From Streptomyces alboniger (GTDB lineage: Bacteria; Actinomycetota; Actinomycetes; Streptomycetales; Streptomycetaceae), in the NCBI RefSeq assembly GCF_008704395.1, contig NZ_CP023695.1, forward strand, positions 2,852,001 through 2,916,000: 64,000 nt of DNA. The letters are read 5' to 3'. A program made the position numbers and the translations under genes. The notes under the pieces were generated by a model. It was not told where the DNA came from, searched no databases, and was given only the letters and a program-made list of their open reading frames with translations. Positions within the stretch are counted from its first letter, which is position 1. Each line of letters starts with the position of its first letter. Shown in pieces: positions 20,027 through 50,403 of this stretch.

Positions 20027-21046
20027 ATGCCGAAGACCGACGTGCCAGGCACCGGGCGCATACCCGAACACCCGCTCCGGTGGTGGACGGAGCTGCCCTT
20101 GATCGTGCTGGTGTACGCCGCCTACTCGGCGGGGCGGCTGCTCGCCCGGGGGGACGTCGCCGGCGCCGTCGACAACGGCATCGGCATCCTCAGGGCCGAG
20201 CAGTTCCTGCGGCTCGACGCGGAGAGCCCGCTGAACCGTCTCTTCACCGCCCACGCCTGGATCGGCGTCCCCGCCGACTTCTGGTACGCCTCGCTGCACT
20301 ACCTCGTCACGCCCGCCGTCCTGATCTGGCTCTTCCGCAGCCGCGCGGTGCACTACCGCGCCGCACGCGCGTGGCTGATGATCTCCACCATGATCGGCCT
20401 GGTCGGCTTCACGCTCATGCCGACCTGCCCGCCGCGACTGCTCAGCGCGGGCCACGGCTTCGTCGACACCATGGCCCAGTACAGCGGCTACGGCTGGTGG
20501 GGCGCCGAGGCGAGCGCGCCGCGCGGGCTCGGCGGCATGACCAACCAGTACGCGGCCATGCCCAGCCTGCACGTGGGGTGGGCGCTGTGGTGCGGGGTGA
20601 TGCTGTGGCGGCACGGGCGCTCGCCGTTGATGCGGGTCGCCGCGGTCGGCTATCCGCTCATCACCACGCTCGTGGTGATGGGCACCGCCAACCACTACTT
20701 CTTCGACGCGGTCGCGGGCGGCGTCGTGATGGGCATCGGGCTGCTGCTCGTACGGCCTGTGCGGCGGCTCGCGGAGCCGGTCATGGCACGGCTGCGGGCG
20801 CGATTCGCAGGGGGTTCCGGGGGCTCGTCGGCCGCTGAGTCTTCCGTTTCCGGTGCCTCGTCCGCCACAGAGTCTTCCGTTTCCGGGGCCTCCTCCGCCA
20901 CAGACTCCTCAATTGTCAGTGGCGGGTGCCAGACTTCGACGGGTGAGCGACTTCCCCGACAGCGCAAGCACAGTGCCGGCCCAAGCGCCGAGCCGAGCGC
21001 CGGCCCCGCCGAGGCGGCGGACAGCGCTGCGGCACCGGCTCGCTGA
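20027..21046 (+). CDS. PAP2-superfamily integral membrane phosphatase/transferase
   Basis: 339 residues with about six membrane spans in the first 265. The catalytic His motifs of the AUR1/PAP2 type are visible: PSLHVGWALW and NHYFFDAVAGG (His and Asp). It may act as a lipid phosphatase or inositol-phosphoryl transferase; the substrate is not deducible. ATG at 20027 with GGGGGAA upstream. The C-terminal tail is low complexity and contains two in-frame 11-residue repeats (ESSVSGASSAT). Its last 104 nt overlap the nuclease gene in another frame, so the extreme tail may be a chance extension. Confidence 0.85.
   Translation: MPKTDVPGTGRIPEHPLRWWTELPLIVLVYAAYSAGRLLARGDVAGAVDNGIGILRAEQFLRLDAESPLNRLFTAHAWIGVPADFWYASLHYLVTPAVLIWLFRSRAVHYRAARAWLMISTMIGLVGFTLMPTCPPRLLSAGHGFVDTMAQYSGYGWWGAEASAPRGLGGMTNQYAAMPSLHVGWALWCGVMLWRHGRSPLMRVAAVGYPLITTLVVMGTANHYFFDAVAGGVVMGIGLLLVRPVRRLAEPVMARLRARFAGGSGGSSAAESSVSGASSATESSVSGASSATDSSIVSGGCQTSTGERLPRQRKHSAGPSAEPSAGPAEAADSAAAPAR
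20837..20902. repeat. two tandem 33-bp repeats at the 3' end of the PAP2 gene
   Basis: Units at 20837-20869 and 20870-20902 differ at two positions and encode ESSVSGASSAT twice. They end 10 bp before a damage-type promoter at 20913. Confidence 0.9.
20913..20935 (+). promoter_or_regulatory. RecA-NDp-like (PafBC-type) DNA-damage promoter
   Basis: TTGTCAGTG at 20913-20921, 8 nt, then CAGACT at 20930-20935. The family consensus from mycobacterial and Streptomyces recA-type promoters is TTGTCAGTG-N8-TAnnnT; only the first base of the -10 element differs. A start point 7-8 nt downstream would fall on the GTG at 20943, giving a leaderless mRNA. Motif match is seen; inducibility is inference. Confidence 0.65.
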
Positions 21047-22172
21047 GCTGCGCGGCGCCGACGTCCCCGCACAGCCGCTGGACGCCCGGGCGCTCGCCGC
21101 GCTCGCGGCCAACCCCGGGTGCAGACGGCGGGCGTTGCTGGACGGGGCGGGCGTGGACAAGACGGCGCTCGCCCGGTCGCTCGGCTCGCCCTCCGGTTTC
21201 GGGCAGTCCCAGTTCGCCTTCATGCGGGGGAACGCGTTCGAGGCCCGGGTCAAGGCCGACGGCGGCGCGGAGCTGCTGCGGCTGACGCACGGGCGCCTGG
21301 GCGGCGGGCCCGAGCCCGCCCCCGGCGAATCCGCCGTGCCCGAGCTGGCGGCGGCGGGCCCCGAGGGGCGGGCGGCCCGCACGGCGCTCGCGCTGCGTGA
21401 GGCGACGGAGTCCGGGGGCTGGACGCTCCTCGACCATCCCATGCTGGCGCTCGACGTCGCGGGGACGCTCGCCTTCCTGGAGCCGGACGCGGTGGTCGTC
21501 CATCCCGACGGCGGCTGGACGGTCGTCGAGATCAAGTCCTTCCCGATGATCGACGGTTCGGCGGACGCGGCGAAGGTGGGGGCGGCGGCGCGCCAGGCCG
21601 CGGTGTACGCACTGGCGCTGGAGCGGGTGGCGGAGCGCCTCGACCCGGCCCCGCCGGTCCGGCACCACGTCCTGCTGGTCTGCCCCAAGGACTTCTCGAA
21701 CCTCCCCACGGCGTCGGCGATCGACGTCCGCAAGCAGCTGTCGGTGACCCGGCGCCAGCTGGCCCGCCTCACCCGCGTCGAGGACATCGCGGCGGAGCTT
21801 CCCGAGGGCGTCACCTTCGACGTCCGCCGCCCCGCCGCCGAACTGACGGCGGCCGTGGAGGCGGTCCCCGCGACCTACGCCCCCGAGTGCCTGTCCGCCT
21901 GCGAGCTGGCCTTCCACTGCCGTGCGCGCGCCCGCGAGGAGGGCGAGGTGACGTCCCTGGGCCGCGCGATCCGCGGCGAGCTGGGGGGTCTCACCACGGT
22001 CAGCGCCGTCTTGGCGGCGGCCGGGGTGGGTTCCGAGGGGGCGGGGGGCCGGGAGGACCCGGGGGATCCGGCGGTGGCGGCGCTGCGGAGGGCGGCGGGG
22101 TTGCGGGCGGAGGCGTTGGCCGGCGGGAGCGCGTTGACTGGCGGGGGCGCCTTGGGGGGTGCGTCTTGCTGA
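20943..22172 (+). CDS. Cas4/RecB-like PD-(D/E)XK nuclease with probable 4Fe-4S cluster
   Basis: 409 residues from GTG 20943. All elements of a RecB-family Fe-S exonuclease can be placed. Cys60 (GCRRRALL) is a first cluster ligand, and GNAFEARV (Glu100) follows. The PD-(D/E)XK core is Asp182 (EPDAVVV) and Glu196-x-Lys198 (TVVEIKSF). The QxxxY motif is Gln218 to Tyr222 (RQAAVYALAL). A C-terminal triad Cys316-x3-Cys320-x5-Cys326 (CLSACELAFHC) completes the cluster, as in Cas4, AddB and Dna2. No CRISPR or recombinase gene is nearby. It heads a run with a protein of unknown family and an SF1 helicase and is preceded by a damage-type promoter. Role: DNA end processing, repair or defence (inference). 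Confidence 0.8.
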   Translation: MSDFPDSASTVPAQAPSRAPAPPRRRTALRHRLAELRGADVPAQPLDARALAALAANPGCRRRALLDGAGVDKTALARSLGSPSGFGQSQFAFMRGNAFEARVKADGGAELLRLTHGRLGGGPEPAPGESAVPELAAAGPEGRAARTALALREATESGGWTLLDHPMLALDVAGTLAFLEPDAVVVHPDGGWTVVEIKSFPMIDGSADAAKVGAAARQAAVYALALERVAERLDPAPPVRHHVLLVCPKDFSNLPTASAIDVRKQLSVTRRQLARLTRVEDIAAELPEGVTFDVRRPAAELTAAVEAVPATYAPECLSACELAFHCRARAREEGEVTSLGRAIRGELGGLTTVSAVLAAAGVGSEGAGGREDPGDPAVAALRRAAGLRAEALAGGSALTGGGALGGASC

Positions 22173-22371
22173 GCCCCCTGACGACAGGCGCACGTCACTT
22201 CCCCACCCACCCGCCCTTCTACCCATCGGCGACCGCCCCGTGCCGAGAAGCCCCACCGCGCAGCGGCGGGGCAGGAGATGGCGCCCCGCGCGCGAAGGCG
22301 GCCGGAGGGCCCCGCGCCCCCCGCGCAGGGGACGCCCCGGGGCCCCGCGGCCCACTGGAAGGAGAGCACCC

Positions 22372-23967
22372 GTGTCGCTGATCGACAGCCTCGCCCGACT
22401 GGAAGCGGTCACCGCGGACCGCGCCCAGCCGAGAGCGACGACCCGGCACCGGCACATCTCCGACCGCCCCCTCGTCCTCGTCCCGCTCACCACCGCCGGC
22501 GAGGCGGGCGCCCCCCTCGGCGCCCTCGTGGGGACGGAGCGCACCTCGCCCCGTCTCCTCGTCGTGCCCCAGCCCCGCGACCGCGACCTCCGCTTCGCGT
22601 TCCTCGCGCAGCTCGCCGAGATCGTCCTGCCGTACATCGAGTCGTACGCGGACGACGTCGAGGCCGCCGAGCGCAGCGAGACCGACCCGGAGACCGGAAA
22701 GCGCGTCAAGGTGGAGGTCGAACTCTGCGCGGACGCCCCGCAGTTGATCGTCCCGAGCCGCGCCGGCATCGAGTACGTACGGCTCCTCGGCCGCTCCATG
22801 CGCTTTCGCCGCACCGCCGAGCAGGACCCCGACACGCCCTACCCCGCGCCTCCCCGCGTGCCGCTCCTCGGCCGCTGGCTGACGCACTTCGGGGAGCGCG
22901 CCCGCGTCCCCGGCTCATCGCTGCTGGTGGCCATGACCGAGCTGCTGTCGCGGCACTGGGCCACCGGCCAGTCCAGCCTGGAGGACCAGCACCTGGGCGC
23001 CCTGCTCGCCTGGATCGAGGCCCCGGAGGGCGCCTCGGGCTCCGCGGCCGCGCTCCGCGCCGAACTGGCGCGCGACAAGGACGGCCAGCTGCTGTGCCCG
23101 CCCGCGGGCCCGGCCACGGACCCGGCGTTCGACAACGACCTGCTCGCCCCGGCCATCGAGCGCTACGACCGCGCCCGCACCGCCCTGGCCGCCGCCGAGG
23201 ACGGCATCGAGGCGGACGAGCGGCTGGCGGCGCTCACGGCCGCCGAGCGGGAGATCCACGCCCTGGTCGAGAGCAGGACCCGCCCCACCTGGGACGCCGT
23301 GTGGCGCGGCCTCGACGCCCTGTGCACCCTGCCCGTCGCCGCGCACGACGCGGACCGGTGGACCCGCGACCGCTGGTCGTTCACCGGGCACCGCGACCGC
23401 GTGACGGCGGGCGAACCCCCGCAGCCCCGCGTCGACGACGCGATCACCGCGGCGAACAAGTTGGCCACGCGGGAGCGCGAGCAGGCCCGCCTCGACGCCC
23501 AAGAAGCCCTGGACGACCCGCTGGTGATGGCGGGCCGCCGCCTCGCGGGCGAGGCCTTCGCGGGCGAGGTGACGGAGGTCGTGATGGCGTACAGCGAGGC
23601 CAGGACGCCGAGGCCGCGCCCCCTGGTCAGCGTCCGCACGGAGGACCGCCCCCACCTCGGCGAGCGCACGAAGGTGTACCGCTCGCTCCAGGGCAAGCCG
23701 CAGACGGCCGAGTTCGTGGCGTACGAGAGCGTGGGCGGCGAGGAGACGGTCGTACTGCGTCTCACCGACAAGATGGGCCGCGGCAAGGAGCCCGAGCCCG
23801 GGTCCGTTCCCGAGAAGGGTGAGCGGATCTGCTGGACGCTCTTCGAGCACGAGCAGCGCGGCGGCCCCAAGCTGCCCGACCCCGAGGCCACCCCGTGGAC
23901 GCACGGCGGGCCGCCGTCGGACGCCGCGGAGTCCCCTGACCCCGTGACCGCGGAGGACGCCCTGTGA
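22372..23967 (+). CDS. unknown protein of the nuclease-helicase operon
   Basis: 531 residues from GTG 22372 with GGAAGGAG at 22357-22364. I do not recognise a domain. The first 120 residues look alpha/beta (RPLVLVPLTTAG, PRLLVVPQP, AQLAEIVLPYIESYADDVE). The middle is helical and charged (RYDRARTALAAAEDGIEADE; ITAANKLATREREQARLDAQ). The last 120 residues look beta-rich (PRPLVSVRTEDRP, KPQTAEFVAYESVGGEETVV) with an acidic tail. No signal peptide or membrane span. It overlaps the helicase start by 3-4 nt, so stoichiometric synthesis is likely. Probably a structural or DNA-binding partner of the nuclease and helicase. Confidence 0.8.
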   Translation: MSLIDSLARLEAVTADRAQPRATTRHRHISDRPLVLVPLTTAGEAGAPLGALVGTERTSPRLLVVPQPRDRDLRFAFLAQLAEIVLPYIESYADDVEAAERSETDPETGKRVKVEVELCADAPQLIVPSRAGIEYVRLLGRSMRFRRTAEQDPDTPYPAPPRVPLLGRWLTHFGERARVPGSSLLVAMTELLSRHWATGQSSLEDQHLGALLAWIEAPEGASGSAAALRAELARDKDGQLLCPPAGPATDPAFDNDLLAPAIERYDRARTALAAAEDGIEADERLAALTAAEREIHALVESRTRPTWDAVWRGLDALCTLPVAAHDADRWTRDRWSFTGHRDRVTAGEPPQPRVDDAITAANKLATREREQARLDAQEALDDPLVMAGRRLAGEAFAGEVTEVVMAYSEARTPRPRPLVSVRTEDRPHLGERTKVYRSLQGKPQTAEFVAYESVGGEETVVLRLTDKMGRGKEPEPGSVPEKGERICWTLFEHEQRGGPKLPDPEATPWTHGGPPSDAAESPDPVTAEDAL

Positions 23968-25328
23968 TGCAGCTCGCCCCGCCCGCGGGCGGCACCTTCG
24001 ACCCCGGCGCCGAGGCCGCGCGCGCCACGGACGCGATCCTCCACGACACGCTGCACGGCACGCACCGCGGCGTCGTCGTCGACTCCCCGCCGGGCGCGGG
24101 AAAGTCGACGCTGGTGGTCCGCGCGGCGCGTGAACTGGCCGCGGCCGGCCGCCCGCTGATGGTGATCGCGCAGACGAACGCGCAGGTGGACGACCTGGTC
24201 CTGCGGCTCGCCGAGAAGGACCCGGAGCTTCCGGTGGGCCGTCTGCACAGCAGCGACCCCGACCCGTACGACAAGGCGCTCGACGACCTGCCGAACGTGC
24301 GCAAGTCGACCAAGGCGGGCGACCTCGCCGGCCTGGACGTCGTCATCTCGACGGCCGCGAAGTGGGCGCACGTGAAGGTGGACCAGCTCGACGCGCCGTG
24401 GGGGCACGCGATCGTCGACGAGGCGTACCAAATGCGTTCGGACGCGCTGCTCGCCGTGGCGGGGCTCTTCGAGCGGGCGCTGTTCGTGGGGGACCCGGGG
24501 CAGCTCGACCCGTTCTCGATCGTCGGCGCGGAGCAGTGGGCGGGGCTTTCGTACGACCCGTCGGCCTCCGCCGTCACGACGCTGCTCGCCCACAACCCCG
24601 AGCTGCCGCAGCACCGCCTGCCGGTGTCGTGGCGGCTGCCCGCGTCGGCGGCGCCGCTCGTCTCGGGGGCCTTCTACCCGTACACGCCGTTCCGCAGCGG
24701 CACGGCCCATGGGGACCGCGCGCTGAACTTCGCGGTGCCGTCGGACGGTTCGGCGCCGGACCAGGTGATCGACGAGGCGGCGCGGGCGGGCTGGGGTCTG
24801 CTGGAGCTGCCCGCGCGGAACACACCGCGTACGGACCCCGAGGCGGTCCGCGCGCTGGCCCAGGTGGTCCGGCGCCTACTGGACCGGGGCGGCGCGGCCA
24901 CCTCGGAGCGCGGCCCCGACCCTGCCCCGCTCACGGCCGACCGCATCGCCGTCGGCACGGCCCACCGCGACCAGGCGGCAGCGGTCCGCGCGGCCCTCGC
25001 CGACCTCGGCGTCGCGGACGTCACGGTCGACACCGCGAACCGCCTCCAGGGCCGCGAGTACGACGTCACGGTCGTCCTGCACCCACTGTCAGGACGCCCG
25101 GACGCCACGGCCTTCCACCTGGAGACGGGCCGCCTGTGCGTCCTGGCCTCCCGCCACCGGCACGCCTGCATCGTGGTCTGCCGCGCGGGCGTCGAGGCCC
25201 TCCTCGACGACCACCCCTCGACGGAGCCGGTCCAGCTGGGCGTCACGGTGAAGTTCCCTGACGGCTGGGAGGCCAACCACTCGGTGCTTGCGCGGCTGTC
25301 CGAGCACCGGGTGGTCTGGCGTCCCTGA
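23964..25328 (+). CDS. compact SF1 (UPF1/Dna2-like) helicase
   Basis: 454 residues. Walker A VDSPPGAGKST (Lys47), motif Ia-like VIAQTNAQVDDL, Walker B AIVDEAYQM, motif III LFVGDPGQLDP, motif IV region GTAHRDQAAAV, motif V DTANRLQGREYDVTVVLHPL, motif VI LASRHRHACIVV. It is short for SF1 and has no visible accessory domains or nuclease. GTG at 23964 gives a GTGA overlap with the upstream gene; ATG at 23967 is also possible. Placed with a Fe-S RecB-like nuclease, the pair reproduces the parts of Dna2 on separate polypeptides. Confidence 0.85.
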   Translation: MMQLAPPAGGTFDPGAEAARATDAILHDTLHGTHRGVVVDSPPGAGKSTLVVRAARELAAAGRPLMVIAQTNAQVDDLVLRLAEKDPELPVGRLHSSDPDPYDKALDDLPNVRKSTKAGDLAGLDVVISTAAKWAHVKVDQLDAPWGHAIVDEAYQMRSDALLAVAGLFERALFVGDPGQLDPFSIVGAEQWAGLSYDPSASAVTTLLAHNPELPQHRLPVSWRLPASAAPLVSGAFYPYTPFRSGTAHGDRALNFAVPSDGSAPDQVIDEAARAGWGLLELPARNTPRTDPEAVRALAQVVRRLLDRGGAATSERGPDPAPLTADRIAVGTAHRDQAAAVRAALADLGVADVTVDTANRLQGREYDVTVVLHPLSGRPDATAFHLETGRLCVLASRHRHACIVVCRAGVEALLDDHPSTEPVQLGVTVKFPDGWEANHSVLARLSEHRVVWRP

Positions 25329-25621
25329 GTCACGGTGGCGGCCACCCGCCGTACGTGCACGCCCACGCGTTCGGATTGCTGTGGGTCATGCGCTGATCAG
25401 GTGACCAACCAGGGCGAAGCGGGTACCTCCACTCCTTCCGCTCGACGCCAGCCCTCGGCGGACGACGCCCCCCCACGTACGGAGCACCTGGGAGGAGGTA
25501 CGGGGCGCCACCCGCGCCCCTGGCGGGGTCTTATCAGGGCCCACTTGTGCGGCAAGGGAGAATGGAAGACGGTCGGACGCCGTGCAGGCGGCGCGCACGC
25601 ACGTATGAGGAGGACCCCACC

Positions 25622-25969
25622 ATGGCGGAGCCCGAGCGGCCCCGGACCGAACAGCGCATGCGTCCCGCGCCCCTGCTCTTCGAGCCCGCGGAGGCGGCGG
25701 CCGACCCCGAGCACTTCTTCGATCTGGAGTCGATCGAGGACCCCCGTGAGCTGCTCGACCGCGCGACCGAACTGACACACGCGTTCCGTGCCGCGACCGA
25801 CCGGTCCATCGAGTTCCAGGCGATCGCGGCCGCCCAGCTCGCCGACCCCCGCCGCTTCGACCGGCTGACGCCCGCGCTCATCGCGGAGCGCGCGGAGTGG
25901 ACCGAGGACTACGCGAAGAAGATGGTCGAGTTCGGCCGCGACCTGCTGCGCGGGGGCGGCGCCCGCTGA
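25622..25969 (+). CDS. small acidic hypothetical protein
   Basis: 115 residues, ATG at 25622 with GAGGAGG ending eight nt upstream. Helical and charged (FFDLESIEDPRELLDRATEL, FDRLTPALIAERAEWTEDYA), no membrane span, no family recognised. It starts 293 bp after the helicase stop and is probably on its own promoter; the 293-bp gap shows no other gene. Confidence 0.7.
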   Translation: MAEPERPRTEQRMRPAPLLFEPAEAAADPEHFFDLESIEDPRELLDRATELTHAFRAATDRSIEFQAIAAAQLADPRRFDRLTPALIAERAEWTEDYAKKMVEFGRDLLRGGGAR

Positions 25970-26140: not shown

Positions 26141-26740
26141 ATGAGCATCTCCCGCGTCCGCGACACCTGTGCCGTCACCGCCGAGGGAGCCGCCTGGCTC
26201 GCCTCCGCCGAAACGTATCCGCGCAGCGCCCTCGCCCACTGGCGCACCCGGCCCAGCGCCCCCGCCGTGCTCCCCTGCGGCTCCGCCTTCGACGTGGTGA
26301 GCGTTCCCGCGGTCTTCGGGCGGCGGATGCTCGACCGGTTATGGGAGGACGGGCCGGGCTCGGGCCCCGTCGCCGCCCATCGCGGCCGCATGCTGCTCTT
26401 CGCCGCCCCCGGCACCGCGCCGCGCCTGCCCTCGCTCCTGGAGTGGGAGGAGTGGGGCTCCGCGGTCCCCTCCGTCCTCTGCCACGGCACGGGGGACGCG
26501 GTCACCGTGCCGCCGCTCGGCGGCGCCCCCGACGCCCCGGCCGACGGGCCCGCCGCCCGCCTCGAATCGCGCTGGCTGGTGGCCCCGGACACCCGCCACC
26601 CCTGGCTGCCGGGCCCCGAGGTGATGCTCTGGGCCTGCGTCCGCGCGGCCCGCTCGGCGGCCTCCTCCGCGGTCCGCATATCGATTTTTCCTGGCGGCGA
26701 TCAGGGTGCTAAGGTCTACGACGTCAGCAGGCGCCGCTAG
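26141..26740 (+). CDS. Prim-Pol N-terminal-like protein with TTA codon, overlapping tRNA-Lys
   Basis: 199 residues from ATG 26141. The pattern DVVSVPAVFGRRMLDRLW...GPVAAHRGRMLLFAAPGTAP...VPPLGG...RWLVAPDTRHPWLPGPEVMLWA marks it as a paralogue of the protein at 16698-17210 and as similar to short actinobacterial primase/polymerase N-terminal-like proteins. The Leu in LDRLWED (26339-26341) is a TTA codon, so translation should depend on bldA. The frame runs on without a stop until TAG inside the tRNA-Lys gene (overlap 10 nt), so the last 15 residues are encoded by the tRNA promoter region. Function unknown. Confidence 0.65.
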   Translation: MSISRVRDTCAVTAEGAAWLASAETYPRSALAHWRTRPSAPAVLPCGSAFDVVSVPAVFGRRMLDRLWEDGPGSGPVAAHRGRMLLFAAPGTAPRLPSLLEWEEWGSAVPSVLCHGTGDAVTVPPLGGAPDAPADGPAARLESRWLVAPDTRHPWLPGPEVMLWACVRAARSAASSAVRISIFPGGDQGAKVYDVSRRR

Positions 26741-26804
26741 CTCAGTTGGTTAGAGCAGCTGACTCTTAATCAGCGGGTCCGGGGTTCGAGTCCCTGGCGG
26801 CGCA
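26731..26804 (+). tRNA. tRNA-Lys (CTT anticodon), copy 1
   Basis: Cloverleaf with acceptor GCGCCGC/GCGGCGC, D arm GCTCAGTTGGTTAGAGC, anticodon stem GCTGA/TCAGC with loop CTCTTAA (anticodon CTT), T arm GGTTCGAGTCC. Identical in sequence to the copies at 41303 and 50323. CCA not encoded. Confidence 0.97.
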
Positions 26805-26813
26805 CAGACAGTG

Positions 26814-41302: not shown

Positions 41303-41376
41303 GCGCCGCTAGCTCAGTTGGTTAGAGCAGCTGACTCTTAATCAGCGGGTCCGGGGTTCGAGTCCCTGGCGGCGCA
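41303..41376 (+). tRNA. tRNA-Lys (CTT anticodon), copy 2
   Basis: Same 74-nt sequence as copies 1 and 3, with anticodon loop CTCTTAA. It is preceded by an AT-rich patch (GGTATTATTTACGAG) that may hold its promoter. Confidence 0.97.
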
Positions 41377-41387
41377 CTTGCGAATGC

Positions 41388-50322: not shown

Positions 50323-50396
50323 GCGCCGCTAGCTCAGTTGGTTAGAGCAGCTGACTCTTAATCAGCGGGTCCGGGGTTCGAGTCCCTGGCGGCGCA
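50323..50396 (+). tRNA. tRNA-Lys (CTT anticodon), copy 3
   Basis: Same 74-nt sequence as copies 1 and 2; shares CAGACAG just downstream with copy 1. Confidence 0.97.
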
Positions 50397-50403
50397 CAGA
50401 CAG

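Follow-up and report, generated by a model that had tools for sequence, protein, structure and literature searches.

The nearest characterised enzyme to the system described here, compared by its description, is Bad of Geobacillus stearothermophilus, in which an iron-sulphur (Fe-S) nuclease, a central domain of unknown fold and a 5'-3' motor are joined in one polypeptide of 1245 amino acids (PMC7430649). Bad is rare and sporadic, stands beside a methyltransferase in Geobacilli, and has a central domain that occurs in no eukaryotic DNA2 and is called 'completely unknown' (PMC7430649). We analysed a 64,000-nucleotide stretch of Streptomyces alboniger DNA (contig NZ_CP023695.1, positions 2,852,001 to 2,916,000 of the forward strand; hereafter the window, whose own numbering is used for its features), in which three adjoining genes, here A, B and C, appear to encode comparable parts as separate polypeptides. 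With a probability of roughly two in three, we read the trio as a damage-inducible, three-subunit DNA2-like resection or flap enzyme that has been redeployed in defence-like loci. The first-pass annotation of the window had placed three genes here, with B overlapping the start of C; both points hold, with a gap of 199 bp between A and B and an overlap of 4 bp between B and C.

20943..22172, + strand: gene A, Fe-S RecB/Cas4-type PD-(D/E)XK nuclease subunit, 409 amino acids, GTG start at 20943
22372..23967, + strand: gene B, putative scaffold subunit, 531 amino acids, two-domain predicted fold
23964..25328, + strand: gene C, RecA-like domains 1A and 2A of a superfamily 1B (SF1B) helicase, 454 amino acids, without a domain 1B of its own

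The sequence of A, whose fold is of the RecB/Cas4/Exo5 DNA-nuclease type, carries the apparent iron-staple RecB nuclease signature of DNA2 and Bad, four cysteines together with the nuclease motifs. Here and below, counts refer to distinct sequences or loci after removal of repeats, which reduced 155 rows of A to 143, 47 core promoter rows to 44 and, L035 and L074 being one locus, row sets of 120, 104 and 97 to 119, 103 and 96 distinct loci. The nine residues listed in the first-pass annotation (Cys60, Asp182, Glu196-x-Lys198, Gln218-x3-Tyr222 and Cys316/320/326, the last three spaced C-x3-C-x5-C) had been read correctly: all nine are kept in 136 of the 143 relatives, and the four cysteines and Q218 are invariant in 143/143. 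The set is also invariant in a 19-row alignment, made with degenerate paralogs left out, whose members extend down to 23-26% identity. As a separate observation, A has lost the D/E/K/Y nuclease residues in an accessory clade (L036, L047-L051) and retained all four cysteines. Profile searches did not place the proteins in a characterised repair or defence system, the outcome that had been named as fatal to the first interpretation: at limits of E 0.01-0.1 neither A nor B had a match among the models of Pfam, PADLOC, PHROG or NCBIfam, which include the known anti-phage models of PADLOC 2.0.0 (E 0.1), and C matched helicase models.

Gene C encodes what its sequence identifies as an SF1B, UPF1-like motor of the DNA2/Bad type. 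It matches Pfam AAA_11, AAA_12 and AAA_30, its helicase motifs are conserved over 112 rows (111 distinct), and its best solved relative by sequence is DNA2 (5eaw, E 2.8e-7); in PADLOC 2.0.0 (E 0.1) it gave just weak matches to helicases of other systems, the best being MkoC at 1.9e-8. Its best NCBIfam model is named 'PLuB', a name for which the literature gave no explanation. C had been described as an SF1 helicase with all motifs, which holds only for the RecA-like domains. In this helicase family domain 1B precedes Walker A, and since Walker A of C already starts at residue 42, with about 40 residues ahead of it, domain 1B is missing from C. Its expected place was therefore in B, a point noted before any fold search.

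B had been set aside as a protein with no nameable domain; its AlphaFold model, which is confident (mean predicted local distance difference test score 89, predicted template-modelling score 0.86), instead shows two recognisable parts, one exonuclease-like and one 1B-like.

22462..23520, + strand: B residues ~31-383, predicted RNase H-like region resembling the exonuclease domain of archaeal family-B DNA polymerases
23503..23856, + strand: B residues 378-495, predicted stalk and beta-barrel resembling domain 1B of UPF1-like SF1B helicases
23896..23904, + strand: B residues 509-511, invariant Trp-Thr-His near the C-terminus, a candidate docking motif for C (by inference)

The C-terminal stalk and barrel of the B model resembles domain 1B of IGHMBP2 in a VIA-align comparison, that domain being presumably residues 33-142 of IGHMBP2. 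Both domains emerged only with VIA-align: Foldseek gave no match at E 0.001 among folds of the Protein Data Bank (PDB), B had no match among PDB sequences, and none among viral folds at E 0.001. The lone Pfam match of B was weak (E 0.075, at the loose limit). Catalysis by exonucleases of the polymerase-B type depends on a carboxylate motif, DEDD. Between B residues 31 and 330 the acids conserved in 32 sequences are E44, E231 and D250, and the first strand lacks a DxE pair, a comparison made without a residue-level structural overlay; on the model, the N-terminal polymerase-exonuclease-like domain is probably catalytically dead. Trp-Thr-His is invariant in 32/32 sequences, down to 19-22% identity, and a more distant B family has one extra residue inserted after its Trp. 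The closest protein to B, from Streptomyces huasconensis, is 92% identical. From the modelled folds, the helicase itself appears to be split between B (domain 1B) and C (1A and 2A). The earlier term 'split Dna2-like module' is thus supported, with a split that seems deeper than proposed, since domain 1B apparently lies in the middle gene; the featureless middle protein of that proposal gives way to one with recognisable folds.

The three genes are gained and lost together. A match to A occurs in 129/132 sampled Streptomyces genomes and in 136/147 genomes of the order. A sample of 296 genomes across the phylum contained A in 16, B in 16 and a strong C (at least 179 bits) in 17, with all three in 15; two of the 16 B matches are weak (G366, 36 bits; G418, 21 bits). 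G299 has A and C, its B being visible by BLAST, and G418 has B and C; in the other 39 phylum genomes, C matches did not exceed 55 bits. The 11 genomes without an A match, of which one is 77% complete, yielded no B match in a search that was run without a positive control and with the same alignment that found B in 16 phylum genomes, and their C matches all fell below 30 bits. A scan of genome contigs confirmed at least 586 relatives, the best 80 of which come from Nocardia, Actinomadura, Micromonospora, Streptosporangium, Nonomuraea, Frankia and others. At least 368 proteins belong to the distant B family, and the 120 listed include some from Mycobacterium, Mycolicibacter, Kocuria, Kineosporia and Geodermatophilus. 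Within Streptomyces, core copies share one conserved neighbourhood (22/22 fetched core loci) and form one clade with support 0.999. A telomere role had been considered, with one paralog 17 kb from a contig end and two near the ends of plasmid records; the idea was abandoned, since many other actinomycete genera also have relatives. Separately, G353 carries what is left of a C gene, interrupted by several in-frame stops (contig C17, ~23034-23814).

Upstream of A lies a candidate damage promoter. The RecA-NDp consensus is given as tTGTCRgtg-8 nt-TannnT (PMC5656591), and closely resembles the mycobacterial PafBC-binding motif (PMC8223512).

20913..20935, + strand: putative RecA-NDp/PafBC-type DNA-damage promoter motif, TTGTCAGTG-N8-CAGACT, with 1 mismatch to TTGTCRGTG-N8-TANNNT, in the -10

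The -10 ends 7 bp before the start of A, so the mRNA is probably leaderless. The motif precedes A in 44/44 distinct core loci (1 mismatch in 37, 2 in 5 and 3 in 2), scanned with an 8-bp spacer only; a scan allowing 7-9 bp also picked 8 in all 22 loci L052-L073. A GTG follows 7 bp after the -10 in 43 of the 44. Random 500-bp stretches of the same loci, a pool that contains the real sites, gave at most 1 mismatch in 27/3000, at most 2 in 56/3000 and at most 3 in 285/3000. The motif is also present in the 10 core loci that lack a PAP2 match, and is therefore not PAP2 coding sequence. Of 96 distinct non-core A genes, 7 are preceded by a site with at most 2 mismatches (control 148/3000), which is chance level, and by sequence the non-core copies give no sign of regulation through the damage motif. 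A LexA box, GAACNNNNGTTC, was rejected as a regulator of A: the window holds two matches, neither near A.

The canonical TTGTCRGTG-N8-TANNNT has 29 exact sites in the whole genome G000 (L180, L182-L209) and none in the reversed control, and a chosen start lies 6-10 bp after the -10 at 14 of the 29. Sixteen downstream proteins, picked as likely repair genes, were scanned. Matches were obtained to uracil-DNA glycosylase (ung), a RarA-like ATPase, RuvC, UvrA, UvrB, RecD2, RecA, a UvrD helicase, a UvrD-like protein (AdnAB-like by eye), a DnaX-like protein, a RadA-like ATPase, ThyX, a DEAD helicase and a PD-(D/E)XK nuclease; L194 matched nothing, and L193, alkyltransferase-like by eye, had no match at the limit used. 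Among the other 13 sites, several genes look by eye unrelated to repair (a sigma factor, a transporter permease, ribosomal protein S6), and one of the 29 sites has no open reading frame (ORF). The -10 variant of the A site, TTGTCRGTG-N8-NANACT, has five sites in the genome against none in the control, preceding A, a UvrD helicase and NuoI-like, serpin-like and glyoxalase-like genes (the last three named by eye). This 29-site RecA-independent damage regulon agrees with what is reported of S. coelicolor SCO6735, which is UV-inducible from a RecA-NDp promoter (PMC5087735), and contrasts with a remark in PMC9380542 that conservation of the motif in S. venezuelae was not seen in a first search.

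Taken together, a working model for the trio emerges. From gene order, co-occurrence, conserved residues, predicted folds, the conserved promoter motif and the neighbours, we infer a complex, its polarity, substrate and induction, and a defence role for some copies. A, B and C would be subunits of one DNA2-like nuclease-helicase, parts that form a single polypeptide in DNA2 and Bad. B would be the keystone: its C-terminal barrel may serve as the 1B domain that completes the SF1B motor of C, and a probable task of its polymerase-exonuclease-like domain, itself probably dead, is to bind single-stranded DNA or to hold A. DNA damage would turn the operon on through the PafBC-type RecA-independent promoter; C with the 1B domain of B would then move 5'-3' on single-stranded DNA and feed A, which would cut flaps or resected 5' ends for recombination. 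Mobile copies, which usually carry a fourth gene, Z, may use the enzyme together with SbcCD or Wadjet against the ends of foreign DNA, destroying or processing them. Two observations weigh against this model: unrelated barrels score close to the match of B with domain 1B, and the promoter motif is weaker in the 10 PAP2-less core loci, with 1 mismatch in five, 2 in four and 3 in one.

The choice between repair and defence had been left undecided. A damage response is probably the role of the core copy, which bears the conserved PafBC-type motif, and the mobile copies stand in defence-like settings. SbcD adjoins 12 of 103 distinct non-core loci, and three mobile copies lie next to Wadjet. In two Streptomyces plasmids (L164 and L165), Z-A-B-C is followed on the same strand by jetA-jetD, with SbcCD divergent, in pieces in L164 and full length in L165; these Wadjet genes are annotated, JetA and JetC are also scored by PADLOC, and the stretch ends within jetD. 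In other copies, C is followed by superfamily 2 (SF2) or HKD plus Snf2 helicases, a large SF2-type one in L047 and L049, and a deep relative of the module adjoins ORFs of the UvrD-type helicase-nuclease, DNA methylase and integrase-like kinds. These neighbours, and the scatter of accessory Streptomyces copies among other genera in the tree, would suit a defence system throughout, with the trio breaking down the DNA of invading phages or plasmids and the core copy being simply a fixed defence locus. We consider this unlikely: the core copy keeps to one neighbourhood and one clade in nearly all Streptomyces genomes, and it bears a damage motif that the non-core copies show only at chance level. 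In addition, no relative of the window's B was found in phage records, and a search of viral contigs with the B alignment gave none. In plasmid records the window's B had three matches, one of them an 11.9-Mb record labelled plasmid, and the distant B of L159 had no relative in plasmids.

A more ambitious extension of the damage-response model is possible, and we offer it tentatively. MRN and DNA2 are the eukaryotic end-resection pair. A bacterial counterpart in actinomycetes might consist of a heterotrimeric DNA2-like enzyme, with a helicase split at 1A/1B, a pseudo-polymerase-exonuclease scaffold and RecA-independent induction, that works with SbcCD (Mre11-Rad50) and has been captured with it into anti-plasmid or anti-phage Wadjet loci.

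Linkage bears on whether the three genes act as one machine. A and B lie within 361 bp of each other in 118/119 distinct loci; the remaining locus is truncated at the end of its contig. The distance between B and C is at most 300 bp in 103/119 and 341-2435 bp in 5, and in 11 C falls beyond the fetched stretch. In G331, among the genomes of these last 16 loci, C is ~36 kb from A-B. The tighter A-B spacing could mean that the nuclease works without the helicase, A-B and C being separate machines. This we find improbable, since a displaced C is still present in each of the 15 genomes searched (16 such loci, all but L118 searched), and since C lacks the domain 1B that B seems to carry. The genes are not routinely unlinked elsewhere, the second outcome that had been named as fatal to the module. 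That the trio acts on RNA, as a UPF1/IGHMBP2-like enzyme, is highly improbable: C and the B barrel do also resemble IGHMBP2, SETX and Sen1, which act on RNA or RNA-DNA hybrids, whereas the DNA-nuclease fold of A, the SbcCD and Wadjet neighbours and the damage motif all point to DNA.

The core neighbourhood in the window contains one further candidate link to the module.

25547..25969, + strand: conserved 140-amino-acid gene after C in core loci

This gene is present in 20/22 fetched core loci and 0/18 non-core loci compared, and had no Pfam match. Beyond it lies a Prim-Pol-like gene (26141-26740; PF09250, with a below-cutoff match to the SCO3374 family NF040464), the end of which runs 10 bp into the start of a tRNA-Lys gene. 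Three tRNA-Lys(CTT) genes stand within 24 kb (26731-26805, 41303-41377 and 50323-50397) and are possible integration sites. A cyclic di-GMP (c-di-GMP) gene lies near the Streptomyces core locus. In Micromonospora-type loci (L034, L114, L123, L127, L128 and others) the gene after A-B is of the GGDEF/EAL type, an identification made by BLAST in L034 and a guess from size and position in the others; C comes after that gene or at another place in the genome.

Resection of DNA ends in Streptomyces is attributed to AdnAB. The picture of repair in these linear-chromosome bacteria would change if they nearly all had a second helicase-nuclease under a damage promoter, and a helicase that receives its 1B domain from another gene would represent a natural split motor. 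If B is the counterpart of the central domain of Bad, that domain gains a structural lead. The pairing with SbcCD makes a bacterial MRN-DNA2-type resection path testable, and the 29-site damage regulon could be mapped across the genus.

How, then, does the trio compare with known systems? We found no description of it in the open-access literature, subscription papers and preprints lying outside the search. Like AdnAB, AddAB and RecBCD, it combines a helicase with a RecB-family nuclease; those enzymes use UvrD-type motors, whereas C is AAA_11/AAA_12, with no UvrD domain at E 0.01 in Pfam. The AdnAB-like gene of the regulon has an exact site of the same damage motif. In a DNA2-like family of ~1430 amino acids the motor is homologous to C (hhalign 98%), and A and B had no profile match to that family. 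TM0106-family fusions (TIGR03491; L172, L173) have the same domain order, RecB-like nuclease, RNase_H_2 and UPF1-like motor, in one chain where the trio is split; C alone aligns to L172 (hhalign 98%), A and B giving no alignment to it and no match to TIGR03491, nor B to PF13482 (RNase_H_2). Separately, a TM0106-family nuclease gene (TIGR03491, RNase_H_2; L158:5059-6753) overlaps with its start the end of C in a deep relative of the module. The trio shares an Fe-S RecB-family nuclease and an SF1B motor with Bad, and differs in being three genes, near-universal in Streptomyces and equipped with a damage promoter motif. Eukaryotic DNA2 is one chain where the trio is three, and we know of no DNA2 counterpart to the polymerase-exonuclease-like part of B. 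Nuclease and motor occupy separate ORFs in the window and the compared loci; because fusion is a defining feature of DNA2, the trio is not filed as DNA2, which it resembles in anatomy. It is real, widespread and unnamed in the libraries searched: a DNA2-like variant.

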